DNA of 64,000 nt, taken from Prostheceraeus crozeri (taxonomy: Eukaryota; Platyhelminthes; Polycladida; Euryleptidae). A program made the position numbers and the translations under genes. Positions 335 to 58,970 of the stretch are shown piece by piece (the first letter of the stretch is position 1; the number at the start of each line of letters is the position of its first letter). The notes under the pieces were generated by a model that saw nothing but the letters and a program-made list of their open reading frames with translations, had not been told where the DNA came from and searched no databases. The stretch spans positions 1 to 64,000 of the forward strand of contig CAJQUW010003186.1 in NCBI GenBank assembly GCA_907163375.1, written 5' to 3'.

Positions 335-365
335 CCACTGCCTCTCATTTCATTTCATTTCAATC

Positions 366-856: not shown

Positions 857-896
857 CCAGAAGATTGTAGCGCTTCTCATTCAATTTGAAGTCACG

Positions 897-1148: not shown

Positions 1149-1300
1149 TCAACTTAATTGTCACCGAGAACGAACCATCGGCTCTCTTAAGGGCCACCAT
1201 GGGGCAAGACATGATAGAACCTCCTCGCGGTTTGCCCTGGGCAGTCTTCGGACTGGCGAATACTATCATTAAGTTGAATCTGCTATCAGTCAACTTGAAC

Positions 1301-1641
1301 GTTGCAAATGAAGTTCGGTGTAATACTTCCTTTCGACGGGCGTTCCTGTAAAGGGCGGCGGTGAAACCCGTAGCTATGTATACCGCAAGGGACATTCGGC
1401 AATGGTCAATCTTGTTAAACCTCTCTGCGTCATGTTTGCAAGTGATTGCCTCTGTCTCAACGTAGCATGCATTCGCGTCAGGGCGACATTTAGCCAACTG
1501 TCGAAGGTTGCCTAAAACTTTCCATTGCATACGTTATGAGAACCATGAGTTCTACCTGTCTCTATCAATGAGACGAATTGATGAATGGAATGAAATGGGA
1601 GGACACTCACGCGCCACACGCAACATAACACACTTCTCTCT
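1301..1641. other. Region without a supported gene
   Basis: This 340-bp stretch follows the third 137-bp repeat. It has antisense open frames running through the repeat but no TATA box with a sensible ORF and no recognisable product. Confidence 0.4.
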
Positions 1642-2999: not shown

Positions 3000-5900
3000 A
3001 TGGTAAGTTGAAAATTTCCTCTCATCTCCCTCAAACGTGTGACTAATAGCATCTTCCTCAATTTCAGACATCAACTTCATCACCAACGCCCTCTCTTCTC
3101 GAGGAAAGTTTAGAGTTATTGAGTCAAGGTAGGTTGTAACACTACACTGAGGCTTGAACAGAGATGAAAGAATGATTTCTCTTTCAGGTGATGTGAGTTC
3201 CAGCTCAGGACTCTCGCGGCAAGGCAACGAGTGGGAATGTGCCGACTGCGGACATATGTTTACAAGGAAGCACAGTCTCCTTCGACACATCAAACAACGT
3301 GTGTGTCAACGCAAAGCGGCGTCAATCTCCGGAGGTGAAGTTGATTCTGACGATGACATCTCCTTTCCTTGCGATTTGTGCCCTCTTTCTTTTGATAGTC
3401 ACTTTCAGCGATCTTCGCACAGACTTCAACACACGCATGCAAATGATCACTACACCAACGGTACCTCTACCATCTCCCTCATTAATGTTTCACATAATAA
3501 TTTAGTACGCGACTACTGCATGGAGTCCAATACTCAAATTGTAGATTTTCCTGAGTGGCTCCTTCAAAATTCTAACATTATCGAAGCGCTCTTCAATAAT
3601 TTAGACAATTTTAGAATGAAGGCGCTCATCTACCTTAAACTAAAATATATTAAAATAGATTTTCAAACGGGTCAAGTGACGGAGAGAATACAGTTTCATA
3701 TTCCTTCCTCTTCCGCAACCGAAGTTGTAGACTGCGAGTCTTGGCTAAATTTTCACATTCAATGTTTAAAATCAAATGTAGATAAATTCAATCAACGCGA
3801 CAGCGCTCTCATTTTTGATGGTGTGGACTCAGCCATATTCAAAATTTCCCTATTAGAAAGTCATGCAGCTCGAGGCACATTTAAACTTCCAAAAACGTTG
3901 TATAATAAGAAAGCTGTCATCAATGTTGATTGTAAATCACAGTGTTTCAAATATGCAGTCCTATCCATCCTTCACTATAATGATATCAACGCGCATCGAG
4001 ATCGCACCTATAGCTATAGACAGTGGGAGGATGAACTAGACTTTGAAGGTTGTGATAGTAACAACATGAAAATCAAAGATGTAGAAACGTTCGAAAAACA
4101 TAATAAGATTAAAATTGTCGTTCACGTGTGGGAGAAGGGGTTGAAGGGTGCCCGCTATAATTCACGTTCAACTTGTTATGAACGTGTAGTCAACCTCTTA
4201 TTAGTAAAACAAGATGATAGCGAGGAATGGCACTACTGTGGTATTCCCAAAATCTCTCGCTTGTACACTCACTTGGGGCACTCTAAAAGAGGTGAACATT
4301 TTGTATGCGACCGCTGCATCCGCTCATTTTGGAGTAAAGATAAATTTGAAACTCACTATGAATGGTGCAAGCGAGGTAAATTACAAATGGAACGCATGCC
4401 CAAAGATAAAATATTTTCACATAGGGATAATGGTGACGAATTAAGTCCCCTGCGTGTCATTTACGCAGACATAGAATGCTACATTGATGATATCATCCAC
4501 AAGCCAGCAGCCATATCCTGCTATGAAGTATGGCATGACCACTTTAGGAATAGACAAAACAAAATGCATACTTGGCAAGGTGAAGATTGCATTTCAAAAT
4601 TTCTAGAATTTCTCGATAAAGCTGCAAAATTTCAACAATCATATGATTCCCAATTGCAGCGTAAGTCACTACATATGTCAGATGAAGACAAACAAAAATT
4701 TGAAAGTTGCACATCCTGTCCTAAATGTCATAAAACGTTTGATGACGATAAAATTAAGAAAGTGCGTGATCATGATCACATCACTGGTAAATTTAGAAAC
4801 GCACTCTGCTCCAAATGTAACTTTTCACTTAGGTTGAGACGTCGTGTACTACCCGTCATTTTTCATAACTTTAAGGGCTATGACAGTCATATGCTCATAA
4901 AAGGAGGGTTGAGCCAGATGAAATCGTGGCAGTTTAATGTAATAGCACAAACGAGAGAAAAATTCATGGCAATGACAGCAAAAGTACCAGTAGATAAAAC
5001 TAAAGAAAATAAGACAGTCTTCTTCGAAATAAAATTTTTAGATTCATTTCAATTCATGTCAGCGTCACTAGCTTCTCTCGTTCGTAATCTCAAGTTTCTT
5101 CCCCATAGTCAAACTTTGAAGAAACACTATCCAAACTTAACGGATGAAATAATCACTCGCAAAGGAGTCTTTCCTTATGCGTATTTTAGCTCAATGTCTA
5201 AACTAAATGAAACAACCCTTCCTTCCATTGACAAATTCAAAAACGATTTGACGGGTGAAGATTGTCCAGTAGAGGACTATGAACATGCTCAAGAGGCATG
5301 GTTAAAATTTAATTGTAAAACGTTTGGCGATTATATGATCGCTTACTTAGAATTAGATGTCATTTTGCTGGCTGATGTCTTTCAGGAGTTTCGACGAGTG
5401 GCATTAGAAGAAGACAAATTAGATCCTATCCACTTTGTCAGTCTACCAGCCATGTCCTTTAAATCAGCCTTTAAAATGACTGGTGAGACCATTCATCTCT
5501 TACAAGACCCGGAGATGTATAATATATTTGAGCGCGGAATACGCGGTGGTCTCACATTTGTAAATAAACATCATATAAAATCTGAAACAGTAGGTGATGA
5601 TCATATCCACCTAAAGTACTATGACCAAAATAATTTATATGGCAGTTCACTGTCTAAACCACTACCTCATTCCGAGTTTAGTTGGTTAAATCAAAATGAG
5701 CTTGAGTATTACTCCAACCCTTCAAACATACTGAATATTCCAGATGAAGGTGATTGGGGATATTATTTTGAAGTGGATTTGATTTATCCAAATAGTATTA
5801 AAAATAAAACTGCTGATTTCCCACTCGCACCTGAATCTGGCGAAGTGACTGAAGATATGTTTTCACCATTCATGTCACAATTTCATAATAACTTAACAGA

Positions 5901-6972
5901 GTGTGGACAGCCAAGGTACAAACCATGCCGCAAACTTTTACTCACCCAATATGATAAGAAAAATTATCTCGTACACTTCTGCATATTAAAATTCTATTTA
6001 GAAATGGGCATGCTTCTAAAGTCAGTTCACCGCATTATCAAATTTAGACAGAAAGCCTTCCTCAAACCCTACATAGATAGTAACAGTCAAAAACGTGCAC
6101 TCGCCCAAAATAATTTTGAAAAGGATTTTTATAAATATAAGAATAATAGTCTATTCGGAAAGACCATGGAGGATGTTAGAAAACGTATGAATTACAAACT
6201 AGTCGTTGATGAACAAAAATATCACAAATTGACCTCATCACCTCTTTTCATTGATAGAGACATCATCGATGAGGATCTTGTAGGTGTTAAAATGATTAAA
6301 TCAGAAGTTGAGTTGTGCAAACCCATCTATATTGGGCAAGCCGTTTTAGATTATTCCAAGCTTGAAATGTATCAACTCTTCTACAAAATATTAAAACCAT
6401 GCCCTCTCGTAAAAGAGGTTCGCTTGCTGGGTGGTGATACAGATAGTTTCTTTTTAGGAATTACCACTCAAAAAGATTTAAATTTTAATGAAGTAGGTAA
6501 GTCATTAGAAAAATATTTCGATACATCTAACTACAATCCCACTCATCCACTCTATTCCATACAGAATAAAGCCAAACTTGGTTGTTTTAAGGATGAAACA
6601 GCAGGAAAGGAAATAGATGAAATGATTCTCCTCCGTCCTAAAATGTATTCCATGAAACTAAAAGAATGTGCAGATAGTATTAAGCGTGCTAAAGGTATAT
6701 CAAAATCCATTGTTCATAAAATGAAACATCGGTCCTATAAGAAGGCCTATAAAAATAAAACTATAACGTTTGTCAATATGACAATCTTAAAATCTCAAGT
6801 TCATACTGTGAAAACGTACACGTTCAAGAAACGAGCACTTTCAGCATGGGAGGATAAGAGGTGTTGGATAGGACATAACACATCTCTTCCACATGGACAT
6901 CCTGACACAAACATACCTCCACCCAAAAGAATAAAACTCACGCTACCACATTCAGGAGATGTATTGACATAA
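3000..6972 (+). CDS. POLB: Protein-primed family B DNA polymerase, spliced
   Basis: Replicative polymerase of the element. I place the ATG at 3000-3002, with intron 1 at 3003-3067 and intron 2 at 3129-3187; the exon at 3068-3128 reads in frame into the long exon from 3188. The long open frame alone begins at a TTG (3154), which is not a credible start. Features in order: two N-terminal C2H2 fingers; a domain with a conserved Cys (VNVDCKSQCFKYAVLSILHY); another zinc finger; exonuclease I Asp/Glu at 4468-4476; an endonuclease VII-like RDHDHITGKFRN near 4765; exonuclease II NFKGYDSH near 4869; exonuclease III YLELDVILLADVF near 5344; polymerase A DQNNLYGSSL near 5623; polymerase B KNNSLFGK near 6143; polymerase C DTDS at 6436-6447. 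The catalytic residues look intact. The long N-terminus fits a terminal-protein/primase-type extension, but which part primes is unknown. Confidence 0.95.
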
Positions 6973-10109: not shown

Positions 10110-10144
10110 TTTTATATTGCTAATCTGCAACTTTGCATAACATC
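10110..10144. promoter_or_regulatory. Compact divergent promoter with TATGCAAA motif
   Basis: The 35 bp between two divergent ATGs contain TTTGCATAA (10132-10140; TTATGCAAA on the minus strand) and an ATATAAA on the minus strand next to the penton-like start. The same TATGCAAA-type motif lies before several other structural genes. Confidence 0.4.
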
Positions 10145-10501
10145 ATGAAGACTTGGATTTTGGACTCTCTACAATATATCAGAGTTGATCGTGATGGAAA
10201 CGTACATTTCAAAAATTCTCATGGTCATACATCAAGAGGAATTACATTAACATGGCGACAATTTGTCAACCTCAATGATATCATGAGGGATTTGGAATAT
10301 TTTGAAACATTAAGATTCATCTCCTTGGGTGATCAAGTTTGGCTTCAACATTACAGAAATGAAATTCAAATCTACCATTCTCATTCCGCAAACTGTTTCT
10401 CATTTCGCAAATACAATTGGGAGAAGTATAGAAGATACATACATCGCTCCATCATGACATTTATTCGTCGTGAGTTCATCGCCCTACTATGCAAATCTTA
10501 A
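10145..10501 (+). CDS. PC4-like single-stranded-DNA-binding protein, copy a
   Basis: 118 aa from the ATG at 10145; the open frame begins upstream at a TTG. The pattern follows the transcriptional coactivator PC4/p15 fold: a strand with an aromatic start (TWILDSLQYIRV), a hairpin (NVHFKNS), an RGITLTWRQFVNL block resembling PC4 KGISLNPEQWSQL, then an amphipathic helix. The whole protein is basic and aromatic-rich. It is followed after 22 bp by a paralogue (10524-11174). PC4 binds melted DNA and stimulates transcription; a role in transcription or replication of the element is inferred. Similarity is by pattern, not by search. Confidence 0.5.
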   Translation: MKTWILDSLQYIRVDRDGNVHFKNSHGHTSRGITLTWRQFVNLNDIMRDLEYFETLRFISLGDQVWLQHYRNEIQIYHSHSANCFSFRKYNWEKYRRYIHRSIMTFIRREFIALLCKS

Positions 10502-10523: not shown

Positions 10524-11174
10524 ATGAGTTGGAAATTAGATTCCCTACAACGTATTGAAACGGATCATGATCGAAACGTCTATTTCAAAGATTCAACTGG
10601 AAATGTGAGAAGAGAGTTTGTTTTATCTTATCGTCATTTTCAATCTCTACATCATATCATGAAGGACTTGAAATACTTCTATATGAAAAGACATTCACGT
10701 ATTGGAAATCGCATCTGGCTGCGCGTCAACAATCGGCGAATTCAACTCTATCATTCCCAACTTCATACTAACTTCACATTTCATCAAGGTAGTTGGGAAA
10801 AGTATAAAAGGAAGGTACATCGCTCAATTTACTCATTCTTTCATCATGAAGCGCCATCGCTACACCATCGTCAACATTCTCCGTCGCTTCAGACTCTACA
10901 CCAAAATCGATCTCACAACATTACGCCAACAGCTTCCAAACAGCAAGTATTACCCGGGCCGTCCTCAAATGTTAGTGGTGAAGATGAACAATTCACGGAA
11001 TCTTCAACTCTTCCCAAATGGGACTGTACAGATTCTCGGCGCCCTTTCTCATTCATCGGCGCAGTCAATGCGCTTAGAGCTACAGAGACTACTACGTCGG
11101 ATATGGAAGAGGGAGAGGTGTGTGATGTCGAATCTGACTGTGGACAATATGGTGATCTCTACTCAATTGAGTGA
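10524..11174 (+). CDS. PC4-like protein, copy b, with long tail overlapping the TBP-like gene
   Basis: 216 aa, ATG at 10524. Residues 1-105 are a clear paralogue of copy a (WKLDSLQRIETD, NVYFKDS, LSYRHFQSLHHIMKDL). The tail (about 105-216) is His/Ser/Gln-rich and then acidic (MEEGEVCDVESD) and is read through the same DNA as the first 110 codons of the TBP-like gene in another frame. Element 2 repeats this arrangement (48373-48933 over 48734-49303), so the overlap is a conserved feature rather than chance. The tail may be little constrained in itself. Confidence 0.6.
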   Translation: MSWKLDSLQRIETDHDRNVYFKDSTGNVRREFVLSYRHFQSLHHIMKDLKYFYMKRHSRIGNRIWLRVNNRRIQLYHSQLHTNFTFHQGSWEKYKRKVHRSIYSFFHHEAPSLHHRQHSPSLQTLHQNRSHNITPTASKQQVLPGPSSNVSGEDEQFTESSTLPKWDCTDSRRPFSFIGAVNALRATETTTSDMEEGEVCDVESDCGQYGDLYSIE

Positions 11175-11391
11175 CAGTCTATCATTTTTGAAGATTCGTA
11201 CCAGCAGTTACAGTTTGTGTTATGAACCCGAACTTTTTCCTGCAGCTCTCATTAGTTGTTGGTTGCCTGTGCATGTGGCAATCTTTCATAATAGTAAAGT
11301 GATCATTACTGGACTAAAATCTCATGAACAAGCAAATATGATCCTAGACTATCTCATTGAGTATGTACGTACCCAGCGGATTGTAAAATAA
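10846..11391 (+). CDS. TATA-binding-protein (TBP) homologue encoded by element 1
   Basis: 181 aa from the ATG at 10846 (frame open from 10702). Both repeats of the TBP saddle are visible. Repeat 1: IVNILRRFRLYTKIDLTTL, PNSKYYPGRPQMLVVKM, LQLFPNGTVQILGA. Repeat 2: MVISTQLSDSL, then CYEPELFPAALI, VAIFHNSKVIITGL. These match, block for block, eukaryotic TBP segments such as YEPELFPGL and the two GK-V-TGA hairpins. Three of the four DNA-kinking Phe positions are Phe; the first (in the NPKRF block of TBP) is Pro. The length matches the bare TBP core without the usual N-terminal extension. The gene overlaps the PC4-like gene by 329 bp. It presumably recognises the element's own TATATAAG promoters. 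Confidence 0.85.
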   Translation: MKRHRYTIVNILRRFRLYTKIDLTTLRQQLPNSKYYPGRPQMLVVKMNNSRNLQLFPNGTVQILGALSHSSAQSMRLELQRLLRRIWKRERCVMSNLTVDNMVISTQLSDSLSFLKIRTSSYSLCYEPELFPAALISCWLPVHVAIFHNSKVIITGLKSHEQANMILDYLIEYVRTQRIVK

Positions 11392-11422
11392 AAAACAATT
11401 TTTCCAACATGATGTTTTTATT
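11387..11422. terminator. Convergent poly(A) signals embedding both stop codons
   Basis: AATAAA at 11387-11392 contains the TBP-like stop (11389-11391); TTTATT at 11417-11422 is AATAAA on the minus strand and contains the protease stop (11418-11420). Confidence 0.6.
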
Positions 11423-11879
11423 TCAAATCATGATAGAACTTACAAATCATTTTTTCATTAGAGGATGGATTACATGAAAAGTTTTGAATAACAGATGCAA
11501 ATCGAGATACATGTAAACGTTTTAAGATGAAGTACAGTACAAAAGCACCACACGTTGATGAAAGTGGATGTTGTAGTATGCGTTCATTTCGCTGATATTG
11601 ACGCGTATGTTTTCTCAACCACTGCTGTGTTGGTATATTTGGAGGTTGAGCAAGAGAGTCAAATAGTTCACCACGTCGGTCTTCTCCAATAAAGATCGCT
11701 TTCCAATGCTCACCGCCTAAATTCTGTGAATGAGTGTTTAGCACAATAAAGATGGGATAGTGATTTACTGCAGGTGGTAAGGTATCGAGTGAATAGACAT
11801 TATCGAAAGCTTTCAACGTCGCTTCGTCTGCATTACGCTGCACTTTAGTCTTAATATCGTCAGCAGTCAACCAACTCAT
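11418..11879 (-). CDS. PRO: Adenovirus-type maturation cysteine protease
   Basis: 153 aa. The catalytic set is visible: His58 in GGEHWKAIF, Asp74 in LFDSL, Gln103, and Cys110 in STCGAFVLYF. The Gln-Cys spacing of 7 equals that of adenovirus protease, and the C-terminal nucleophile block is typical of this Ulp1/adenain clan. It would cleave capsid or core precursors during virion maturation. The ATG overlaps the stop of the capsid gene by one base (TAATG), so expression from a shared transcript by reinitiation is possible. Confidence 0.92.
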   Translation of the reverse strand: MSWLTADDIKTKVQRNADEATLKAFDNVYSLDTLPPAVNHYPIFIVLNTHSQNLGGEHWKAIFIGEDRRGELFDSLAQPPNIPTQQWLRKHTRQYQRNERILQHPLSSTCGAFVLYFILKRLHVSRFASVIQNFSCNPSSNEKMICKFYHDLK

Positions 11880-13156
11880 TAACGATTATACTGAAGAATC
11901 ACGTCACGATACTTTGTAATTTCAATATTTGAATCGAAGACTGCATAAATTAATACATTGATCGTCTCAGGTAGTGTTCTTTTGAACGTCAAATCCAAAC
12001 GAATATTATGAGGCACGTTCGCTTGACGATAGGGTGCACTAATATCGCTGTCAGCAGTCAAATCAAATGCATAAATAGTATATCCACTCTTAAATTCTTT
12101 CATAGTCAGTCCGTTGGTATCATCCGTATTGTAAAAGCCAAAGACATCCATAAAATCAACATAACTGCGCATAAATTGATCCGAAGCAAAATCTGGTTTG
12201 TAGGGTGGACCAGGATGACTCACACCATTAACACGTAAAGCAATTTCACTTAACTGATTGTGTTTAAAATTGAAAGGATTCTTCTTTATATTACCATTAA
12301 ATGCATCATTTTCAACCATTGCCACCATGAGGAGCTTCGGTGCTTCCGATGGAAAGAGGCCATCTTTCATGAAACTCTTTTGATCTTTCGGAATTGTAAA
12401 GGTGAGAAGCTTTGTATGCTGAACGGGGTAAATGGCATTTTGGCGGTTAAGACCTTCAGCATGCCCTCTAATGACACTTGGATTCGGTACTACTCGACGA
12501 ATGTAAAGTGCAATATCTTCCACATGAATTCTAAAATTGTCAACTTTAGCAAATGCATTCAGGGCAAATTCAGGCTTATTCAATGTCAGCTTGAGTCGCA
12601 TGCTGGTATTACAGAGTAAAAACTTTGACTGTCTAAAGAAGTCTAAATTCAGCGGACCATATAGCTGACATACTCTACTATCTTTAATCATAGCAGATCG
12701 CTTTACAAAGCCACTGTTTGTTTCAACATCAAATTTTCCTGCTTCATCTCTGTACCATCCCATGGCTTCCATATGACTTTTTTGTGCTGCTGGATGAAAC
12801 TGTGATACATGATTGAAATATGATTTATAGGGATAATCGCTTTGACCACCTTCCACCTGCTGCTCTCCAATCGTTAGAGAAACATCGCGAAGTAATGTAG
12901 TCAATGGTAAATTGTTCAGTCCAACTTTATGTGCATCGTCAATAGCAGTTCCATCTGCTTGCTGAATTCTAAACCTCAAATCAAGCATCGCATAACTCAA
13001 ATCTATGTAGTCATCACTACCACCAGGAATAACAAATTCAATGGGGCCAGCATTCTCAGCTGTTCGAGGATGATAATCTACAATACTTGAACTAAGAATA
13101 TCTGTCTGTATGGCTTGTTGATCGAACAAACAAAAACCGGAAGTTTTACACTCCAT
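11879..13156 (-). CDS. MCP: Major capsid protein, double jelly-roll type
   Basis: 425 aa, ATG at 13156. The protein belongs to the family annotated in invertebrate genomes as F54H12.2-like: QTDILSSSIVDYHP, PIEFVIPGGSDDYIDLS, LLRDVSLTIGEQQVEGG near the N-terminus, then KNPFNFKHNQLSEIALRVNG and DTNGLTMKEF in the second half. Length and two similar halves fit a double jelly-roll hexon-like capsomer. I am confident of the family; the jelly-roll assignment follows from published work on Polinton capsid proteins and from gene context. It lies between the protease and the core protein, with only 2 bp before the core gene's stop. Confidence 0.85.
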   Translation of the reverse strand: MECKTSGFCLFDQQAIQTDILSSSIVDYHPRTAENAGPIEFVIPGGSDDYIDLSYAMLDLRFRIQQADGTAIDDAHKVGLNNLPLTTLLRDVSLTIGEQQVEGGQSDYPYKSYFNHVSQFHPAAQKSHMEAMGWYRDEAGKFDVETNSGFVKRSAMIKDSRVCQLYGPLNLDFFRQSKFLLCNTSMRLKLTLNKPEFALNAFAKVDNFRIHVEDIALYIRRVVPNPSVIRGHAEGLNRQNAIYPVQHTKLLTFTIPKDQKSFMKDGLFPSEAPKLLMVAMVENDAFNGNIKKNPFNFKHNQLSEIALRVNGVSHPGPPYKPDFASDQFMRSYVDFMDVFGFYNTDDTNGLTMKEFKSGYTIYAFDLTADSDISAPYRQANVPHNIRLDLTFKRTLPETINVLIYAVFDSNIEITKYRDVILQYNR

Positions 13157-13655: not shown

Positions 13656-14744
13656 TCACTGTCGATCACTTAGATGAAAGATGTCGGCACGACGCATCCA
13701 AGAGTTCATACTTGAAGGATAACCAGTCCATTTAACAAGACACCATTCTTCACCTTGCCGTTTTTTACATCGAATGATTTTCTCTACCAAATATGTTTCA
13801 CTTTCAGTGACTACCTCAATCTCATCGCGGTAAAAGCTACCCTCAATTTCTTCATTATCGTAATCTTTCAACTTGTAGGTGGTCGGAGAGTCTTTTTGAT
13901 TAATCCTTGATACTGTAAATACCTCCTCTGTCCAATTCGGGAGGTACCCTTTAGCAAAAACACTTTTCACTTTTGAGATACGAACTTTATCGCCAATTTT
14001 CACATCACTTTTCACATGAGTGCGTTTACGTTGGAATGATTCGCGCACTTTATCTACATTGTCAGCATTTACATCTACTGGTCTGAGTCCAATAGAACGA
14101 TGGATAGAGTGATTGTAGGCATGGAGTGTATCTTGTAGAACCTTTGTCCAATTTTGTGTCAAGTTGGCAGTAAAATGTCGCCACAAACGATTTTTTAATG
14201 TGCGATTAAAACGTTCAACGAGTGCAGCTTTATAAGCGCTCTTTACACTAAACAACTCAATGTCATGCCTCTCAAATAATCTTGTCACATGCTGATTTTC
14301 AAACTCTTTTCCTTGATCACTCTGAATTCTTTTTGGAATGCGACCTTCTCGAAAAATTGTTTGGAATGCTTTTGCTACTCCTTTCCCTTCTTTAGTTTTT
14401 AAAGGTTGAGCCCACGCATAACGCGAGAAAATATCAATGACGGTTAAAATAAAATTATTGCCCGAGTTATGTTTTGAAATGGAGGCAACATCGCACAAAT
14501 CTGCTTGCCACTGTTCATCGATGTCATGAACAATATAATGGCGGGTGCGGTACTTCTTTTTCGCTTGTTTGTGGAGTGTATAGGTAGCCTGACCCTTTAA
14601 CCATCGTTTCACTTGTGATTGTGGAAGACCACTCGCTTTTGATAATTTCTTGATAGATGCAAATCCTGCCGGATGTTTTACATCATAATAGATTGACTTC
14701 AAACGTTCAGTCGATGACGGCTGACTCTTTTTCCTCCTTCTCAT
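13656..14744 (-). CDS. INT: Retrovirus-like integrase with C-terminal chromodomain
   Basis: About 362 aa from the ATG at 14744; the frame is open to 14870, but the extra residues are not conserved. The DDE catalytic triad is in WQADLCDV, IQSDQGKEF and ALVERFNRTLK, all intact. A helix-turn-helix-like segment precedes the core (LSKASGLPQSQVKRWL). A chromodomain lies at the end (YLVEKIIRCKK, WCLVKWTGYPSSMNSWM). It inserts the linear element DNA, with 6-bp target duplication in this family. The upstream Cys-rich ORF (14707-14916) overlaps its first codons. Confidence 0.93.
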   Translation of the reverse strand: MRRRKKSQPSSTERLKSIYYDVKHPAGFASIKKLSKASGLPQSQVKRWLKGQATYTLHKQAKKKYRTRHYIVHDIDEQWQADLCDVASISKHNSGNNFILTVIDIFSRYAWAQPLKTKEGKGVAKAFQTIFREGRIPKRIQSDQGKEFENQHVTRLFERHDIELFSVKSAYKAALVERFNRTLKNRLWRHFTANLTQNWTKVLQDTLHAYNHSIHRSIGLRPVDVNADNVDKVRESFQRKRTHVKSDVKIGDKVRISKVKSVFAKGYLPNWTEEVFTVSRINQKDSPTTYKLKDYDNEEIEGSFYRDEIEVVTESETYLVEKIIRCKKRQGEEWCLVKWTGYPSSMNSWMRRADIFHLSDRQ

Positions 14745-14916
14745 CTTTTTTCTTTCTTGCCTTTCTACATTTACAACAACTGCAGCATTTAGCGGTTTTG
14801 CGATCGTGTTCACATTGCTTAGGGGTTTCATTATGAGAGCTGGCGCAGCAAGTGCAAGTGACAACGACATTCACCTCTGGCGGCTCATTACATGGCAAGC
14901 AACACATCTGCTTCAT
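14707..14916 (-). CDS. Small Cys-rich protein overlapping the integrase start, 69 aa
   Basis: ATG at 14914-14916. It carries 14 Cys, in pairs: MCCLPC, TCTCCASS and KCCSCCKCRK, followed by a Lys/Glu-rich tail. It ends inside the integrase N-terminus in a different frame. Element 2 has a Cys-rich ORF at the same place (54226-54552), with a matching EV-x-C-x-CC-S pattern, which argues that the gene is real. It could be a zinc-binding or membrane-anchored (palmitoylated) protein. No family recognised. Confidence 0.55.
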   Translation of the reverse strand: MKQMCCLPCNEPPEVNVVVTCTCCASSHNETPKQCEHDRKTAKCCSCCKCRKARKKKDEKEEKESAVID

Positions 14917-14917: not shown

Positions 14918-15610
14918 TTAATAGTCTGAGAACATGTATTTCCTAGGAGGAGCTGTTTTACGTTTTCCTTTTACCAGTTTTAGTGGCGATACAGATCTAC
15001 GTCGAGTTCTTCCCCTTGTTTGCTTAGTGAGTGTGGGAGGGGATGTAGCAGGTGACGTCTTAAACCAATTTGTTGGCATTTTCATCGCCTGAAGCATTGG
15101 AGTAGTAGCCACTGTTGAATCAAGTTCTTTCAATGTCTCATTATTTAAAGCAAATTTTGGCACATTATGCTTTTTCAATAGTTTAAGAAAGTATGACCAA
15201 CCAGGTGGAACATAGCCCTGACGGCGCTTTCTACGTGTCGCATACTGAATCAAGTCTTCATAACGTGAAGCATCAATCACTTTATTTTCATCTGTAATGA
15301 TTTCTCCTCTATCATTTACATTGAGATGGGGTTCAATACTGTTGAAAAGAGATATGGCATGTGCGCGAGATGCTAAAGGTGTAGCAGTCGATACAGAGTC
15401 ACGCATCTTATTCTTCAAGTTTTTCAATTGCTCAACAGTTTCCGATTGTAATAATACAGCACGATGTGGATCTTTGATGTGAACATTTTGCTGATAATCT
15501 ATTTCTTTCCTATACATTTGATTTGCAAGAGGTTGCTTTACTTGCTGCATGGCAGTCAATTGTACATATTCATCCTGAGGAATAACAATCATGCGAGAAT
15601 AAGAACTCAT
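14918..15610 (-). CDS. Conserved Polinton protein of unknown function, 230 aa
   Basis: Homologous to 54587-55237 in element 2 at both ends: the start (YSRMIVIPQDEYVQLT) and the middle (RRKRRQGYVPPGWSYFLKLL, with the same Gly-Trp-Ser-Tyr-Phe). The C-terminal third is basic and Pro/Ser/Thr-rich. There is no membrane segment. It sits between integrase and ATPase in both elements; its ATG overlaps the ATPase stop in an ATGA. This placement suggests a packaging- or virion-related role, but I do not recognise a domain. Confidence 0.75.
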   Translation of the reverse strand: MSSYSRMIVIPQDEYVQLTAMQQVKQPLANQMYRKEIDYQQNVHIKDPHRAVLLQSETVEQLKNLKNKMRDSVSTATPLASRAHAISLFNSIEPHLNVNDRGEIITDENKVIDASRYEDLIQYATRRKRRQGYVPPGWSYFLKLLKKHNVPKFALNNETLKELDSTVATTPMLQAMKMPTNWFKTSPATSPPTLTKQTRGRTRRRSVSPLKLVKGKRKTAPPRKYMFSDY

Positions 15611-16224
15611 AGTTTGTAGATAATCATGGGAGTTTTCAAAATATCACTTCGAAATCTAAATTCTTCCGGACACTCTTGCGTAAAGTCAATGAATAAGTAA
15701 CCGTATGGTTTTTCAGTAGCTGCTTGAAAAATTTCAATTAAGGCTTTTGATCCTCTGGGTGCAACTTGTCGCGCTAAAATTTCAAATTGACTTTTATCTC
15801 GCGGATTCTTGAAAATAGCATAATAGTGTGTATTCAGGTTTCGTGTACGAGCTTCTTTTCCATCAGGAAACAAATTTTGTGTAATATAGATGATAAAACA
15901 CCTTTTATGGTGTGCTGCGCGAGTGAACATATCTGTAACATCTTTTGAATTCTTACTTTCTTTTAATAAATCATCCAATACAACAACATCATTAGACTGA
16001 AGTTTATCCACTGGAATAATTCCTTCATGTCGAATAAAGTTGCGACTTTGCAATTCCTGAAACAGCGACGGTTGATAAATACCATAACACCAAATCACTC
16101 GATTGATAGGTTCCTTAAACAACTCCCTTCTTTTATCCAATAAATTCAGCGTGAAAACAGTTTTACCTGCATGAGATGGACCTGATACAGTCAGAACTTT
16201 ATCACATTGAAGTCTGAAATCCAT
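15607..16224 (-). CDS. ATP: FtsK/HerA-type genome packaging ATPase
   Basis: 205 aa from the ATG at 16224; the upstream open frame begins with TTG, and the element 2 homologue starts at the equivalent place. Walker A is GPSHAGKT (residues 15-22), Walker B is VVVLDDLL, and the sensor-like ITQN follows. The C-terminal GYLFIDFTQECPEEFRFR block is typical of Polinton and A32-like packaging ATPases. It pumps DNA into capsids. The stop overlaps the next gene's ATG by ATGA. Confidence 0.93.
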   Translation of the reverse strand: MDFRLQCDKVLTVSGPSHAGKTVFTLNLLDKRRELFKEPINRVIWCYGIYQPSLFQELQSRNFIRHEGIIPVDKLQSNDVVVLDDLLKESKNSKDVTDMFTRAAHHKRCFIIYITQNLFPDGKEARTRNLNTHYYAIFKNPRDKSQFEILARQVAPRGSKALIEIFQAATEKPYGYLFIDFTQECPEEFRFRSDILKTPMIIYKL

Positions 16225-16246
16225 TTTATTACTTTGAGACTCAACA

Positions 16247-16255
16247 TTTGCATAA
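16247..16255 (-). promoter_or_regulatory. TTATGCAAA motif before the ATPase gene
   Basis: TTATGCAAATGTTG on the minus strand, about 25 bp before the ATG at 16224. It shares TATGCAAA with other structural-gene promoters. Confidence 0.35.
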
Positions 16256-16612
16256 TTAACGCTTAGAGCCAAAGATATTTCCCAATAGGTTGCCCACGGC
16301 AGGAGCTATCATTGGAAGTATTGCTGAAAGGAAACCGCCCTTTTGTGTTAGAGTTTTCCTCTTTCTTTGAAGGGCGACTTTAGGATTGGAGATGAAACGC
16401 AATTTCGTAGCATATCGCTTAAGTAACTTTCGTTGTTTTGGCGCTAATTTCTTCGTCCTCAACTTCCTCACATGAGAAATAATTTCACAAATGAATTTAT
16501 CGTTAGCATGTCGTATAGCATTGTATCGCTGATTTGCTTTCATTCGTCGGAGAGCTTGAATGGCTGAAGAAAACTTTTGACTTTTACGTTTCGTCATTTT
16601 ACGTTTCGCCAT
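16256..16612 (-). CDS. pVI-like small basic virion protein, 118 aa
   Basis: The ATG at 16610-16612 gives MAKRKMTKRKSQKF, a basic N-terminus, then a helical basic region, and a C-terminal QKGGFLSAILPMIAP segment that is hydrophobic and likely amphipathic. The GG followed by a hydrophobic tail is a recurring feature of this Polinton gene and resembles adenovirus pVI/pX processing products. A membrane-lytic or DNA-bridging role is plausible (inferred). Homologue in element 2 at 56917-57309, with a matching RGGSGFLNML block. Confidence 0.65.
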   Translation of the reverse strand: MAKRKMTKRKSQKFSSAIQALRRMKANQRYNAIRHANDKFICEIISHVRKLRTKKLAPKQRKLLKRYATKLRFISNPKVALQRKRKTLTQKGGFLSAILPMIAPAVGNLLGNIFGSKR

Positions 16613-19830: not shown

Positions 19831-21275
19831 GCCGCCATCTTGCGCGGTCCAGAAGTGGAGTTTTGCTTACTACTAGTATTTTCCTGCGAATAAGCGGCTT
19901 ATCTGACTTTCAAGGCGTAAATCAAGTTGGAGCGGCTTGGGTGCTTCTATTCTTCCCCTCCCACATTTTTGTTGTTTCCACCCGCGAGTGTTGCACAGCC
20001 AACGATCTTCTCTTGCTCCTGGTTAGTCTATACAGTCGCGTCCGGGTGTATAAAATTCTTCTAGTCTGTAAAATTCACAGCACTTGCCTTGTCGTTCACT
20101 GCTACAGACAACAATCCCACGAAGTTCATGATCACAGGTGTATCTTGTATTCTGAGTATCCAAGGTAAAATACTGTCTAAAATTGTCTAAAATCCGCAAA
20201 AATGAATCAACCGTCACAAAGCTTCAGATACACGTATTTCAGTATATTTTCTACCCACAGACAAAAATTTATACAAATCCGATTAGTACTTTTTGAATTA
20301 GAGACGACAACTTGAAGTGTAGCGATTTCAGCAGCTTAATCTGACTGTCTGTTCGACGCATTGTTGTTACTCGGGTGTGCATTGTTGTCTTCTGTCTTCG
20401 TCTCATCCACTGCTATTTGAAATCTTCCCACGACCACTACCCTAACACAACTTTCTTAAGTTAGGCATATTAATGGAAAGGATGTGTTCTGGGCAGTGTT
20501 TTTGAGCGAGCGAGCGGCATTTTTTCAAGTTTTTGATGAGCGGATGAGCGAGCGAAAAAATTATTCTGTGAGCGAAAATTGAGCGAGCGAGCGGTGATTT
20601 TTTGTCGTGAGCGAGCGGTTGAGCGAGCCATTTTTAGAAAAACAAAAAATAAAAGATCAAATAATCAAAAAAGCGAAATATTTGAAAAATCTTTTAAAAA
20701 ATGCTTTCTTTAAAAGTTCTTTTATAGCACATGCATGTATATAACTTGATTGATGAATAAAACATTCGAAGTTTTTCTCTCTTCTGTGGTTCTCACACTC
20801 CTGACGAAATGCATTGAATGCGTGTCTGAATTCTTTTTATGAATATGAACTTATCAAGAAGAAGGTCTTTGTGATCGATGATGCACTCAACATCCGACCA
20901 TCGACACATTATTTATTCACACATCTTTTGAATCGGTCTCCCAAACGTCGCTTCGCCCCATAGATGTATTAATATCTATGCAAATGCAGGAAGACATTAT
21001 AAAATGCTTTCATTTGATAGAAACATTTCGTTGCTGGAACACATCAACATGCAGATCCTTGAGAGACATTCAGTATCGTCAAACGTGAAAGAACTGCGAA
21101 AGAACTTCAAATTTTGGAAGAATTGAAACCAACCAAATTAGGCCTACACACAGACAATCCCCATGTAGGCATATATGGCTTCCACTGTACGGTACATTGA
21201 TTTTAAGACCATGGCCATTGATTCATTTGAACCCTATCCATACCGGACTCTGAAGCGCGTAGGACTGAATCGGCC

Positions 21276-38446: not shown

Positions 38447-38452
38447 CATATT

Positions 38453-38781
38453 AGTAGTTAATAATGTGAACGCAAAAAGTGAGGATTAAAACGAGGATGC
38501 GAACATGGCGTTCCAAACATGTAAATATGAACATTTGAATTCGAACCGCGTTCCGATTGGGATTTGAATTTGAGTTCATGTTTCGAGGTTCGGTACAATC
38601 AATTGTGTACTGGGGTTGTAACAGCCTGTTCCGATTTTGAATTAAAGTGAGTGAATTAGAACAGGGATGCGAACATTTATTTCGGAACTTGAATAGATAG
38701 TTGTTTGTTTTGAGACTGCTTGCTCAAATGCGACAATTGTGGCCATTGTGACTATGATGACAATTTTATTTATTTTCATAA
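38453..38781 (+). repeat. Left terminal inverted repeat of element 2
   Basis: 329 bp, matching 58636-58964 in inverted orientation with one mismatch seen by eye (TTG against TCG in GATAGTYGTTTG). Confidence 0.95.
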
Positions 38782-44223: not shown

Positions 44224-47200
44224 ATGGTTGTCTGTTCCAAGTGTGGAAAATCTTTTACTCTTTATGGCAATTTGCAACGTCATGAAAAATTTTGTAAGTT
44301 GGGGATAACATATAAGTGTAGCAAGTGTCCATATCAAACGAATAGGAAGGATAATCTAAAGCGACACAATCTAGTTTGCAATTTAAGTTCAAATTCTCAA
44401 AATATGTCAGTTGTTAATCAAGTAGAATCACAAAATAATCACATATCCAGATCTAGTATTGTTGAACCAACGTCTAGACATACGTCAACCAGCGCTTCAA
44501 ATAATACCTTTATGCAATGTTGCTCCCATTGTGGCAAAAATTATAATTCTGTTAGCAAATTTCGTCAACATATGAATGTACATAATACAAAAAGTGAGAT
44601 GAATATTCATAATAATCATGGAACTCTAAATCTCAGTGAAAGCGCACTTAATGGTCACGCTCGTGTATATGACATCACACCATCAACACATACAATCGAC
44701 ATTAATTCTTTTTTATTGAGTATGCGACCTATAATAGGGGACTTAGTGTCAAACCTTCTAGAACAATTTCAACTACGTGGCCATCTAATTGCACAAATTC
44801 GTTATGTGCGATCAAATCCTCAAGAAGATGAAACGTTTCTCGCACACTTTACATCATCATCTACAAACTATATTTATGACTATGATACCTGGTTCCAAGA
44901 TAATTTGAATAGTCTTTCAAGCCATATTGAAGCATTTGCAAATAAGGGTAGCAACTGGGTTATAGATGAAATACTTAATATTGAATTCAATGTTATTACC
45001 AGTCCACTACTATCCGGTGGACAAACATTTACTCTACCAAAGAGCTTGAAAGATTATAAGGCTGTAATCAATGTACACTCAAATGCAAATGACTGCTTCA
45101 AGTATTCAGTTTTATCAATACTACATTATGATGAAGTACTTCACTCGAGAAATGAGATGAAATCATATAGCAAGTGGACATCTGATCTGAATATGGATGG
45201 CATTGCCACACCAGTATCAATAAAAGATATTTCTAGGTTTGAGAAAAATAATGACATCAAAATTAACATTCATTTTTATGAAAAAGGACTCAAAGGTGTT
45301 CGTTATAGTAGCAACTTTATTGGTAAACGAACTGTCAATATACTGTTAATTGTTAACAATGAACGCGCACATTATTGTGGAATCAGAAAGATATCGAGAC
45401 TATATAGGAAAATTAATAAAAGATTTAAACATTACTGTGATCGATGCACCCAATCGTTTACATATAAGACAACTCTAGACCGACATTATCAATTTTGTGT
45501 TCGAGGAAAAGCGCAAATAGAAAAAATGCCTAAACAACTAGAGGTAAGTACAAGTAGCATGGAATATCATCTAAGTCCACCTTTAGTAATTTATGCAGTT
45601 ATAGAGTGCTACATCGATAATAAAGTGCATAAACCTGCAGCAGTTGGAGTTTATCATGTTTGGCACAACGCTCTCCAATCAAAATTTGATAACGAATATT
45701 ATGTCTTTAAAGGAGAAAATTGTATTATGAACTTCTTAAATCACCTAGAAAATGTAGCACAAAATTTGTATGACAATCAGCGTGCAATAAGTAGACAACC
45801 GATGTCTCTATCCCATGATGAAGAAGAAAAACACAAAAGCGCACAGAGTTGCAGTAAATGTAAATCTAAGTTCAGTGATGATTGTATCAAAGTGAGAGAT
45901 CATGATCATATAACAGGAAAATATAGACAAACATTATGTAGCAAATGCAACCTTCGATTGAAACTGAATAGGCGGGAACTGCCCATATTTTTCCACAACT
46001 TCAAGAATTAGACAGTCACATCGTTTGCTACAAAGCAATTGGAAAGAAGAAACCATGGAAATTAGAAGTGGTAGCAGCCACAGCTGAAAAATACATAACT
46101 TTATCCGCTAGTGTACCTGTGAACGAGTACAACGGAAAAACAATATATTTTAAATTAAAGTTCTTGGATTCTTTTCAATTTTTAAGTGCATCACTAAGTG
46201 AATTAGCAAAAGGATTACAAGTGTATAAGCATGTAGAAAAATTAAGAAACGAATTTCCACTGATTAATGATGACATCCTATATCAAAAGGGAGTGTTTCC
46301 CTACTCTTATTTCAAAAGTCTAAATACATTGTTGGAAAATAGTCTACCACCACAATGTGAATTCTATAATGATCTCACACGAGAGCATTGCTCAGACAAA
46401 GAATATGAACACGCTTGTAATGCGTGGATCGCTTTCAGTTGCTCCAATTTTGGTGATTACATGCTTGCATATCTCAAATTAGATGTGTTATTGCTGGCAG
46501 ATATTTTTGAAGTCTTTAGATCATTGAGTCAAAATGAAGATGAGGTGGATCCTGTGCATTTTGTCAGCCTTCCACACCTTAGTTTTACTTCAGCTTTGAG
46601 TTTTGCTTCATCTGATCCTCCACACTACATACAAGATGAAAACATGTACAATCTATTTGAAAGGGGAATAAGGGGAGGTATGACATTTACAAATATCCAC
46701 ACCGAGCGCGTGCACGCATTACGGAATTACAAAATAATACAAATGAAAGCCGTTACTTTTCCTACATAGATGTCAACAACCTTTACGGCTCGTCACTCAG
46801 CAAGAGTCTACCACATTCAAATTTCAAATGGTTGAATGAAGATGAAATAGGCTACTTTTCAAACGAAGTTAATATTCAAGTCATAGATGATGATAGTGAA
46901 ATCGGATATATTTTTGATTTAGATTTGGAATATCCTGCAAGCATACATGATGACACTGCCGATTTTCCATTGGCACCAGAAATGCAGATGATAGAACAAA
47001 AAATGTTTTCAAGTTATATGAAAGACTTGTATAAAAAAGTAAGACCAAATACTAACTTTTCTTCAACTAAGAAACTATTGCTACACCAATTTGATAGGGA
47101 AAATTATGTTGTACACTATTCAATATTAAAATTTTATTTATTTATGGGTATGAAAGTTAAAAAAGTTCAAAGCGGTGTAAAGTTCACTCAAAAGCCCTGG

Positions 47201-48372: not shown

Positions 48373-48933
48373 ATGCCTCATTACACTAGAACATGGAAAC
48401 TAAACGACTTACAAAGCGTTCACATAACAAATTCTAAGAAAGTAGTCTTTCGTCACTCAATAGCAAATAGTGGTGGAAGACATCGTGGCGTTTGCATTAG
48501 CCTTGACGCATTATCTTCACTGAAAGACTTCGCTGATCTGATTGACAACCATAAGACACGGATGAAGATTCCCCTCGATCAAAAGGTATGGATAAAGTGT
48601 GACTCTACCGTCAAGCTGTACGTCTGTTCACCAAAGAGAGAAGATATTGACTATCGATTTTTCCGTTTCAGTGACGTCACATGGAGAAACTTTACAAAAG
48701 AGATACTACCACATATGATTTCTTTTATGAAGGATGGAGGACATCAAGCGGATGGAAGTCGTGAATCGCATGTTAACTACAAAAGTAAACTCAAAACTCA
48801 ATCTTCAAGAAATCGAGCGCAACATTCCCAATCGAAAGCAATGGTTATTAATAAAACACAAGATGAAGCCGACAACGAATCTACATCTGGGAAGACCCTC
48901 AATGTTAACATGGAGGATACAGAGGAAGGATAA
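48373..48933 (+). CDS. PC4-like protein of element 2
   Basis: 186 aa. The N-terminal domain follows PC4: WKLNDLQSVHITN, KKVVFRHS, GRHRGVCISLDALSSLKDF, then an amphipathic helix; the basic VWIKCDSTVKLYV repeat follows. The tail (about 125-186) is Ser/Gln/Lys-rich and ends acidic (MEDTEEG), as in element 1. The last 200 bp overlap the TBP-like gene in another frame. Only one PC4-like copy occurs here, against two in element 1. Confidence 0.6.
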   Translation: MPHYTRTWKLNDLQSVHITNSKKVVFRHSIANSGGRHRGVCISLDALSSLKDFADLIDNHKTRMKIPLDQKVWIKCDSTVKLYVCSPKREDIDYRFFRFSDVTWRNFTKEILPHMISFMKDGGHQADGSRESHVNYKSKLKTQSSRNRAQHSQSKAMVINKTQDEADNESTSGKTLNVNMEDTEEG

Positions 48934-49303
48934 ATATGTGACTATCCTATTCTTTCCAAATGGAACAATCCAGTGTGTTGGTGGCTTCACTGATGGTGAT
49001 CTACCATATCTACATTCTACATTGGAAAATTTACTTAGTGACTCATTATCTGAATGGGAAGTGAAGACAATGACTGTGTTATGTGAATTGAACTATCATT
49101 ATGACTTTCGTAAAGTCACATCATCAAATAATCTCACTTATGAAGTGGAACTATTTCCAGCAGCACAGATGACTAACTGGCACCCATATCATGTTCATGT
49201 ATTCCATAATGGAAAGATTGTGATAACCGGCATTAAAGACATAAATGATGTTCCTCCCATCCTATGTGATTTGAGAAAAATATTTGTGAAATCTACATTG
49301 TAG
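48734..49303 (+). CDS. TBP homologue encoded by element 2
   Basis: 189 aa; start at 48734 or the in-frame ATG at 48752. The two saddle repeats are visible: VVNRMLTTKVNSKLNLQEI and VTILFFPNGTIQCVGGF, then YEVELFPAAQMTNW and VHVFHNGKIVITGI. It matches the element 1 protein and TBP over the whole core. As in element 1, the first DNA-kinking Phe position is Pro (HLGRPSML) and the other three are Phe. The frame is open despite lesions elsewhere in the element. Stop at 49301-49303. Confidence 0.83.
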   Translation: MEDIKRMEVVNRMLTTKVNSKLNLQEIERNIPNRKQWLLIKHKMKPTTNLHLGRPSMLTWRIQRKDKYVTILFFPNGTIQCVGGFTDGDLPYLHSTLENLLSDSLSEWEVKTMTVLCELNYHYDFRKVTSSNNLTYEVELFPAAQMTNWHPYHVHVFHNGKIVITGIKDINDVPPILCDLRKIFVKSTL

Positions 49304-49422: not shown

Positions 49423-49436
49423 AATAAAACTTTATT
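49423..49436. terminator. Convergent poly(A) signals
   Basis: AATAAA at 49423-49428 serves the plus-strand genes; TTTATT at 49431-49436 (AATAAA on the minus strand) overlaps the protease stop. Confidence 0.6.
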
Positions 49437-49896
49437 ACAAAACAGTTTCAATATACTTTGTAAGAATTACATCATTTTTATAGCAGTCTTTCGAAAAAAG
49501 TTGTAAAACACTTTTACAGTTATTTTTCAATGGTCTCTCGTTGATGAAATATAGCACATAACCGCCGCACATGAGAGATACATTGCTTTGGAGTGGAAAC
49601 GATGTAACTTTCTTAATCGTCCAGGAGAACCTATTCATCCATAGTGCAATGTCATGTAAGCGAGGTAGATTAAGAGAGTCAAAATATTCAGCCACTTTAT
49701 AGCGATTGATGTACACTGCAATCCAATGTTTACCAGGAAGATTGTTGCTGTCCGTATTGATGATAAGCGAACAAGGATAGAAAGGAATTGAATTAGGTAA
49801 ATTATCTCTAGAAAAGACATCAAGAAATATTGACTTGGAGTAGGGATGAGCATTTCCCATTTTCCTCAAGATTTGTACGTTGCTTAAGTTACTCAT
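49435..49896 (-). CDS. PRO: Adenovirus-type maturation protease of element 2
   Basis: 153 aa, the same length as in element 1. Catalytic His57 (PGKHWIAVY), Asp73 (YFDSL), Gln103 and Cys110 (LMCGGYVLYF) are all present, with the Gln-Cys spacing of 7. The frame is intact. Its ATG overlaps the stop of the capsid gene in an ATGA. Confidence 0.92.
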   Translation of the reverse strand: MSNLSNVQILRKMGNAHPYSKSIFLDVFSRDNLPNSIPFYPCSLIINTDSNNLPGKHWIAVYINRYKVAEYFDSLNLPRLHDIALWMNRFSWTIKKVTSFPLQSNVSLMCGGYVLYFINERPLKNNCKSVLQLFSKDCYKNDVILTKYIETVL

Positions 49897-53330: not shown

Positions 53331-54419
53331 TTAAAAGTTACGAGTGGCTCCCACCTCCACATTTTGTAGATCCTGGTGCGTTATCCAGCTATTAAATGAA
53401 TCAGGATATCCTTTCCATTTAACTAGATATTTCCTTTGATTGCCATGACCTTTCCTCCTAATTATTTTGTCAATCATATACACCTCTTCACTTCTGTCTA
53501 CTACTTGCAATTCATAAGAGTAAAATTTTCCTTCAATTGGATTGCCATGGTAATCTATTAATTTATACATGGTGGGTCTAAATTTTGTATTTACTTCATC
53601 CACAAAAAACTCTTCTTCAGTCCAATTAGGTAGATACCCCTTCTCAAATGTAGACTTAACCTTTGAAATCCGAACTCTATCACCAACATTAATTTTCTTT
53701 TCATTGGAAATGTTTTTCGCTTTCTTATCATACAATCGAAGCCATACATCCATCGCATTATCTGGGGTAACATCAACTGGTTTCATCTTAATGATTCGAT
53801 GGTAGCTTTCATTGTAATTCTTAACAAATTTCTGCAGCTCACCTACCCAAACATGTGTATTTTTTGCAGTGAAATAGCGCCATATTTTTGTCTTCAGTGT
53901 GCGATTGAACCTCTCAACCATGGCAGCTTTATAAGCACTTTTGACACTAAACAATTCCACATTATGACTTTTAAGGAGACTTCGAACATGAGAGTTTTCG
54001 AATTCCTTCCCTTGATCGGTCTGTATTCTTTGCGGAACACGCCCCTCATCGAAAATGCTCTGAAAAGCCGCTTCAACTTCTGGTCCTCGTTTAGATTTCA
54101 GGGCACGTGCCCAAGCATAGCAAGATAAAATATCTATTACGGTTAAGATGTATTTATAGCCATCATTGTACTGTGATATCTGTTGCATGTCAGCCAAGTC
54201 CGCTTGCCATTGACTATCTATATTGTTAACAACATATTTTCTCGTTGGAAACCGCTTTCTCGCATTTTTGTGAAGAGTGTAAGTCGGTTGACTCCTCAAC
54301 CACTTCTTGACTTTCTCTATCCCCACACCAGCTGCACGAGCTAGAACCTCCGGACGACTGAAACTTGCGGGGTGATTTAAGTCGTAATAAATCTTTCTGA
54401 GTTTCACTGCTGTACTCAT
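53331..54419 (-). CDS. INT: Integrase with chromodomain, element 2
   Basis: 362 aa from the ATG at 54417-54419 (frame open to 54482), the same length as in element 1. DDE residues: WQADLADM, IQTDQGKEFEN, AAMVERFNRTLK. Chromodomain: VYMIDKIIRRKG and KYLVKWKGYPDSFNSWI. Catalytically intact by eye. The first codons overlap the Cys-rich ORF. Confidence 0.94.
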   Translation of the reverse strand: MSTAVKLRKIYYDLNHPASFSRPEVLARAAGVGIEKVKKWLRSQPTYTLHKNARKRFPTRKYVVNNIDSQWQADLADMQQISQYNDGYKYILTVIDILSCYAWARALKSKRGPEVEAAFQSIFDEGRVPQRIQTDQGKEFENSHVRSLLKSHNVELFSVKSAYKAAMVERFNRTLKTKIWRYFTAKNTHVWVGELQKFVKNYNESYHRIIKMKPVDVTPDNAMDVWLRLYDKKAKNISNEKKINVGDRVRISKVKSTFEKGYLPNWTEEEFFVDEVNTKFRPTMYKLIDYHGNPIEGKFYSYELQVVDRSEEVYMIDKIIRRKGHGNQRKYLVKWKGYPDSFNSWITHQDLQNVEVGATRNF

Positions 54420-54552
54420 CGTCTTTGTTCTGATTTGCACGCGTATTACTCCCACAGCAACTGCTAACACAATTGATATCAACCTCTATGCCCTCTTCTC
54501 CTTTACCTTCGAGCGCAGATTTCAAACAGCAGCAAAACTTTTGTAGCGACAT
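54226..54552 (-). CDS. Cys-rich protein overlapping the integrase, element 2
   Basis: 108 aa. Starts KFCCCLKSAL, followed by EVDINCVSSCCGSN, and ends with more Cys (SCSWCGD, KICC). Position and the EV-x-C-x-CC-S pattern match the 69-aa ORF of element 1; the overlap with the integrase is longer here (194 bp), and the distal part may be only read-through of integrase sequence in another frame. Confidence 0.5.
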   Translation of the reverse strand: MSLQKFCCCLKSALEGKGEEGIEVDINCVSSCCGSNTRANQNKDDEYSSETQKDLLRLKSPRKFQSSGGSSSCSWCGDRESQEVVEESTDLHSSQKCEKAVSNEKICC

Positions 54553-58635: not shown

Positions 58636-58964
58636 TTATGAAAATAAATAAAATTGTCATCATAGTCACAATGGCCACAATTGTCGCATTTGAGCAAGCA
58701 GTCTCAAAACAAACGACTATCTATTCAAGTTCCGAAATAAATGTTCGCATCCCTGTTCTAATTCACTCACTTTAATTCAAAATCGGAACAGGCTGTTACA
58801 ACCCCAGTACACAATTGATTGTACCGAACCTCGAAACATGAACTCAAATTCAAATCCCAATCGGAACGCGGTTCGAATTCAAATGTTCATATTTACATGT
58901 TTGGAACGCCATGTTCGCATCCTCGTTTTAATCCTCACTTTTTGCGTTCACATTATTAACTACT
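58636..58964 (-). repeat. Right terminal inverted repeat of element 2
   Basis: Inverted match of 38453-38781, 329 bp, ending in ACTACT followed by the duplicated CATATT. Confidence 0.95.
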
Positions 58965-58970
58965 CATATT

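Follow-up and report, generated by a model that had tools for sequence, protein, structure and literature searches.

Polintons in the genome of the polyclad flatworm Prostheceraeus crozeri carry a gene for a homologue of the TATA-binding protein (TBP). The protein consists of two TBP repeats in series that are predicted to form the TBP saddle, and several of the Polinton lineages in the genome encode it. It probably recognises the promoters of the elements and recruits host TFIIB and RNA polymerase II to them. The window analysed is a stretch of 64,000 nucleotides from one contig (CAJQUW010003186.1) and contains two such elements, each with one copy of the gene (Table 1).

Table 1. Features of the two Polinton elements in the window, with the TBP genes and the ORFs that overlap them
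Feature	Element	Position	Strand	Remark
PolB-like ORF	1	3154..6972	+	homologous to element 2 PolB pieces; Endonuclease_7 7.5e-07
Tandem second companion copy	1	10133..10501	+	43% identity to first copy
Companion ORF, identity unproven	1	10524..11174	+	relatives P0077-P0080; HMM matches in fetched loci
TBP homologue, 181 aa	1 (lineage A)	10846..11391	+	PF00352 match, predicted saddle
Cysteine protease-like ORF	1	11418..11879	-	convergent with TBP; Peptidase_C48 E 0.0012, 19.2 bits (cut-off 20.7)
Capsid-like ORF	1	11879..13156	-	name from Polinton gene order
Integrase with chromodomain	1	13656..14870	-	rve 1.2e-10, Chromo 6.5e-07
Packaging ATPase-like ORF	1	15607..16272	-	53% identity to 55279-55914 (element 2), 36% to L003 ATPase
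Target-site duplication CATATT, left	2	38447..38452		flanks left terminal repeat
Left terminal inverted repeat, begins AGTAGT	2	38453..38781	+	inverted repeat pair
PolB piece (gene split over different frames)	2	46068..46769	+	DNA_pol_B_2 5e-11
Companion ORF	2	48373..48933	+	overlaps TBP ORF by 200 bp
TBP homologue, 189 aa	2 (lineage B)	48734..49303	+	PF00352 E 4.6e-14, two stretches
Protease-like ORF	2	49435..49896	-	same position after TBP; Peptidase_C48 E 0.063
Integrase with chromodomain	2	53331..54482	-	rve 3.9e-12, Chromo 1.3e-09
Right terminal inverted repeat, ends ACTACT	2	58636..58964	-	inverted repeat pair
Target-site duplication CATATT, right	2	58965..58970		flanks right terminal repeat

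The TBP gene of element 1 is an ATG-started frame nested in a longer open reading frame (ORF) listed from a TTG at 10702. A sequence-only reading of the window had placed both repeats of the TBP core in this frame, and the Pfam comparison bears it out: PF00352 matches in two stretches (E 7.6e-21, 74.2 bits, cut-off 22.9), and the sequence includes CYEPELFPAALI as well as both hairpins, FPNGTVQILG and FHNSKVIITG. The diverged copy that had been claimed at the same place in element 2 is also a two-stretch match (52.5 bits, same cut-off), with 31% identity to the first (54 of 172 columns). In a search of PDB sequences, TBPs are the top-listed matches for both window proteins. A profile of 77 family members finds the TBP of M. 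jannaschii over nearly its full length (E 1.5e-25), and aligned with yeast TBP by hhalign the family reaches a probability of 98.5%, the positive control for the comparison of the companion ORF described below. Structure prediction, applied to the element 1 protein, gives a two-lobed TBP saddle over residues 1-181. A chance ORF is ruled out by the Pfam match together with the residue conservation and dN/dS values given below.

Element 2 has the ends of a Polinton or Maverick. It spans 38453-58964, with (AGT)2...(ACT)2 terminal inverted repeats that are 99% complementary and a 6-bp duplication on the two flanks, the length of target duplication typical of Polintons. Ends of the AGTAGT/ACTACT type are the commonest in vertebrate Mavericks, according to PMC8097293. 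No inverted repeat pair was found for element 1 within the window; its left end probably lies outside, and a candidate right end, ACTACT, occurs at 19869-19874. The gene types of element 1 are those of element 2. PolB and a retroviral-type integrase are present in the window elements, and the packaging ATPase is recognised by the identity of the two window ORFs to each other and of the element 1 ORF to the ATPase of contig L003 (described below), which passes Pox_A32; taken alone, the ATPase-like ORFs of both elements fall under the Pfam cut-offs (AAA_14 7.7e-05 in element 2). The protease-like ORF of element 1 also matches Peptidase_C5 under the cut-off (E 0.043). The capsid-like ORF of element 1 has no Pfam match, and its name is assumed from Polinton gene order. 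The element 2 copy is not intact, because its PolB-like gene lies in pieces and different frames and its capsid-like gene is interrupted. The overall reading of the gene as a Polinton-encoded TBP homologue is supported.

Several other features were noted in the window. The PolB-like ORFs at 3154-6972 and 44224-46011 (both on the forward strand) contain an Endonuclease VII-like domain together with C2H2 zinc fingers; the fingers are clear in element 2 and score below the cut-off in element 1. A RING-finger protein, possibly a ubiquitin ligase, is encoded at 58098-58601 on the reverse strand (zf-C3HC4_3, E 3.5e-10) and adjoins the right terminal repeat of element 2. Near-identical direct repeats (95.6-100%) occur close to the left end of the window (166-1305 and 1642-2255) and to the right of element 1 (21276-22439). 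The window has no Rfam match at gathering scores and no tRNA.

In both elements the TBP gene lies between the protease-like ORF and a companion ORF that the sequence-only reading had labelled PC4-like, the position claimed for it. In element 1 the companion and TBP frames overlap by 329 bp in different frames. Among 40 loci fetched from the genome, 39 have a companion-family ORF that overlaps TBP on the same strand (the exception, L035, belongs to lineage E), and in 32 of the 40 the ORF with the largest overlap starts upstream of TBP; for these counts ORFs were delimited by stop codons at both ends, the overlapping tail was part of the companion HMM, and the frames of some loci are broken or fused. 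The companion frame is also kept at full length in two database relatives, known as proteins, which are 79% and 68% identical. Both overlapping frames appear to be maintained, since both are seen in the fetched loci. While the neighbouring ORF itself is there as claimed, its label fared less well: Pfam lists no PC4 family for 11 distinct companion proteins (13 scans), and in an hhalign comparison with a two-sequence PC4 profile, query columns 3-51 are colinear at a probability of only 4.8%, although the score is matched by only 1 of 300 column shuffles. A PC4-like identity of the companion is weakly supported and unproven. An internal duplication of the companion ORF is not supported.

Residues were counted over 77 aligned members, two from the window and 75 from databases, in yeast TBP numbering; P0001, a fragment identical to the element 2 TBP, was excluded. 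The second repeat is well conserved, both on the DNA side (F190 in 76 of 77, F207 in all 77, N159 and V161 in 61 each, T215 in 76) and on the TFIIB side (E186 in 76, E188 in 74, L189 in 68). In element 2, N159 and V161 are both replaced by Thr. The first repeat keeps F116 in every member and N69 in all 51 that have a residue at this site. Of the 60 members with an aligned residue at F99, 59 have Pro; V122 is Gln in all 77 (two genomic copies outside the set have Arg and Lys), and T124 is Leu in 55 and Thr in none. K138, presumably a contact for TFIIA or a repressor, is Glu in 45. Invariant positions are F116, the Gln at 122, P191, F207 and G216. Of the four intercalating phenylalanines of canonical TATA-binding TBP (F99, F116, F190 and F207), F99 is lost; the acidic TFIIB contacts of the second stirrup, E186 and E188, are retained. 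In Table 1 of PMC2265533, the DNA-side positions and L189 are among those at which yeast TBP becomes null for DNA binding, and E186 and E188 do not appear there. Substitutions at F99, V122 and T124 other than those of the family abolished DNA binding by yeast TBP in the same table (PMC2265533), so DNA binding by the family could be weakened. The importance of the TFIIB-contact acidic residues, numbered E184 and E188, is described in PMC12529657.

The genome searched comprises 2.05 Gb in 14,165 contigs. At least 150 of 10,982 candidates exceeded the cut-off for PF00352, among these at least four pieces of the host's own TBP and of a TRF2-like gene. The element 1 and element 2 proteins each found at least 150 matches, 100% and 99-100% identical, respectively, among the matches listed. 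For lineage A, a 35-mer taken from within the TBP gene has 4,683 exact matches in the genome, and for lineage B the number is 321; the backward-pattern controls give zero. This copy number and the identity of the lineage A proteins among the matches listed suggest recent bursts. The 40 loci were hand-picked for variety from the PF00352 matches, and for that reason all contain TBP; together with the window and loci L026-L029 they were assigned by sequence and gene order to lineages A, A2, B, C, D and E. In some of these loci protease-like and capsid-like genes come after TBP; in lineage C a PolB is located about 1 kb further on, in most cases on the other strand. One further locus, L019 (G000:C3829:150235-153438), is a piece of a host gene which we take to be TRF2/TBPL1-like; the canonical host TBP exons are found at L018 and L020. 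Together the host TBP and this TRF2-like gene point to an animal host.

Nei-Gojobori dN/dS values were derived from 27 distinct sequences among 34 ORFs of at least 170 aa with the start motif, after removal of four that lacked it; they refer to pairs inside set distance limits and include the region overlapping the companion ORF. Lineage A against its sister A2 (L045, L054) gives 0.24-0.36, or 0.35-0.42 for the damaged copies L057 and L061, and the one pair within A2 gives 0.53. Values are 0.28-0.40 for C against D, 0.33-0.47 for A against C, 0.43-0.59 for A2 against C, 0.33-0.34 for D against L054 and 0.37-0.46 for three pairs with E, all with dS above 1. Pairs within lineage A that include L057 or L061 reach 0.56-1.09. 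By these sequence comparisons TBP is under purifying selection between lineages, and the pattern fits selection while elements move followed by near-neutral change after insertion.

Relatives also occur outside this genome. Two protein database searches (E <= 0.001) yielded 16 of 37 and 60 of 99 candidates, 76 proteins in all and every one with PF00352; these are known as proteins alone, not as Polinton genes, on contigs of at most 24.7 kb, many below 3 kb. A scan of a genome collection added one relative among 51 pattern matches. This is L003, a contig of 3.4 kb catalogued with a bacterial metagenome-assembled genome, which we read as a mis-binned Polinton fragment. Its ATPase matches Pox_A32 at 2.7e-05. 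Its TBP, truncated by the contig end, is a match at 6.6e-38. It shares 44% identity with the yeast protein (64 of 146) and retains both F99 and V122; T124 is Leu and K138 is Glu, as in many family members. No relative was confirmed in IMG/VR with the element 1 TBP, the 77-row profile, the capsid-like ORF or the ATPases as queries, and the element 2 TBP found no match in a phage collection. An IMG/VR contig of 17,382 bp (L009) encodes an archaeal-like TBP with one in-frame stop.

The tree has 38 rows: 21 of the family (six from the host genome and 15 database proteins), L003, and 16 cellular and IMG/VR sequences. Ten of its inner branches are open, some rows are long, and its viral rows are IMG/VR contigs of no known kind. 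All 21 family rows group together as a clade (100/100), which sits on a long branch. With the midpoint root as drawn, L003 is on the cellular side; the branch that splits L003 and the family from the other 16 rows has support of 97/91, which makes L003 sister to the family given a root among those 16. Host TBP clusters with the yeast protein, apart from the family, and this rules out a recent capture of host TBP. A single old acquisition would be the simplest reading of the family's origin.

The promoter-factor reading draws on homology, fold, family, residues, selection, companion and tree, and on the precedent of the herpesvirus protein ORF24. Polintons would encode a fast-evolving TBP as an element-specific promoter-recognition factor. 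Once an element is expressed, its TBP would bind and bend the element's own promoters and recruit host TFIIB and RNA polymerase II. The host polymerase is suggested because a Pfam scan of 33 window ORFs showed no RNA polymerase gene or subunit. The C-terminal repeat would retain the contacts with DNA and TFIIB. The N-terminal repeat, because it is altered (Pro at 99, Gln at 122, Leu at 124 and often Glu at 138), probably reads a different half-site, and it may evade factors that hold on to the corresponding half of the cellular protein. The overlapping companion may act as a partner in the promoter step. Weighing against this reading are the substitutions at F99, V122 and T124, the Thr residues of element 2 at N159 and V161, the higher dN/dS values of some lineage pairs (up to 0.47 for A against C, 0.43-0.59 for A2 against C) and the lack of TATAWA enrichment ahead of element genes. 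Elements that carry their own altered TBP may thus bring their own means of promoter choice.

The same residues bear on other functions. A TFIIB side that is kept (E186, E188 and L189, as counted above) beside altered DNA contacts in repeat 1 would also be expected of a decoy, one that occupies host TFIIB or promoters but starts no productive transcription and in this way dampens host expression during the element's activity. However, a pure TFIIB decoy would have no need of the three kinking phenylalanines, kept in 76-77 of 77 members, or of the Asn pair, kept in most, and a general inhibitor expressed from thousands of genomic copies would presumably impose a cost; we consider this function unlikely. 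Another alternative is a role in replication, at the termini or in packaging, for instance as a bender of DNA at element ends. TBP folds bend DNA, and the neighbours of the gene are replication and capsid-like genes, but we know of no use for conserved TFIIB-contact residues in such a role, which seems very improbable.

The element could instead be a dependent, virophage-like one, its TBP matched to the promoters or polymerase of a large virus co-infecting the cytoplasm. Giant viruses do carry TBPs, and several named ones are among the BFVD fold matches; yet these viral proteins are distant (7-20% identity among the best 50 BFVD rows, several of them unnamed), the viral rows of the tree are IMG/VR contigs and include no BFVD protein, and the conserved TFIIB residues suit host polymerase II. 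This dependence is quite unlikely. Finally, the dN/dS of lineage A pairs with L057 or L061 is what a captured host TBP without present function might give. Such a capture, already disfavoured, is extremely improbable, as the ratios between lineages are mostly 0.24-0.47 (at most 0.59, A2 against C), five positions are invariant in 77 members, and the family is a single clade apart from host TBP.

Compared with cellular TBP (yeast, host and archaeal), the Polinton protein shares the two repeats, the full-length saddle, the YExELFP motif, three of four kinking phenylalanines and the TFIIB-side glutamates. It differs in having only 22% identity to yeast TBP (38 of 176), in the substitutions at F99, V122 and T124, and in lacking an N-terminal extension. 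Giant (nucleocytoplasmic) viruses likewise encode TBP folds, as the BFVD matches show. However, many TBP-carrying giant viruses encode their own RNA polymerase, whereas the window elements have no polymerase subunit among the 33 scanned ORFs. KSHV ORF24 is a herpesvirus TBP mimic that directs late viral promoters via host polymerase II, and it replaces hydrophobic groove residues with polar ones, comparable to Gln at 122 in Polintons (PMC12529657). According to that paper, ORF24 requires all four phenylalanines, lacks the TFIIB acidic residues and binds DNA with a further C-terminal domain, whereas the Polinton family lacks F99, has the acidic residues and consists of the two repeats alone (PMC12529657).

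Vertebrate Mavericks (PMC8097293) share the terminal sequences of element 2 and the PolB, ATPase and integrase genes, and have a protease gene where the window elements have a protease-like ORF; the main text of that paper has no TATA or TBP and places further genes in accessory regions. In line with the sequence-only reading's view that Polintons are not generally described as carrying a TBP, none came up under Polinton, Maverick or adintovirus with TBP terms in the open-access listings and passages covered. TATA or TBP as a word is absent from PMC11071308, PMC8097293, PMC4028283 and PMC10120064, and PMC12220804 has no TBP, its two occurrences of TATA being an author's name. Sporadic TBP genes are reported in endogenous elements of putative mirusvirus origin (PMC10675990) and a TBP in a megavirus (PMC11464507).

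The Polinton TBP connects the strategies of transposons, herpesviruses and giant viruses. Polintons are the proposed ancestors of many eukaryotic DNA viruses and, to our knowledge, their transcription has hardly been studied. A conserved TBP of their own offers a direct handle on it and suggests element-encoded promoter choice, exerted by a likely promoter-binding protein with a measurable site. The family also amounts to a natural experiment, with one lobe of TBP re-engineered and the TFIIB face left unchanged, and the number of copies of the 35-mer ties the question to genome evolution.

Two candidate promoter words were counted. TATAWA is not enriched upstream of the window element genes (4 in 28 genes, 2.6 expected) or in 25 regions ahead of genes in other lineages and in L003 (5, with 3.1 expected), a set in which some loci are near-identical and the start of some ORFs is not clear. 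WWGCAAA, spotted by eye and then tested on the same data, has 11 sense sites upstream of 9 of the 28 genes of elements 1 and 2 and one antisense site, and none of 2000 random draws was as high. It is a lead only, because the enrichment is absent from the 25 other regions (1 site, 1,332 of 2000 draws as high). A more specific initiation module, in which the altered TBP (Pro99, Gln122) would read a non-TATA promoter such as WWGCAAA and, with a single-stranded-DNA-binding, PC4-like coactivator from the overlapping frame, would supply thousands of element copies with host TFIIB and polymerase II while sparing host promoters, is a tentative and rather doubtful extension. In L003, TATAAAA is seen by eye ahead of two genes.
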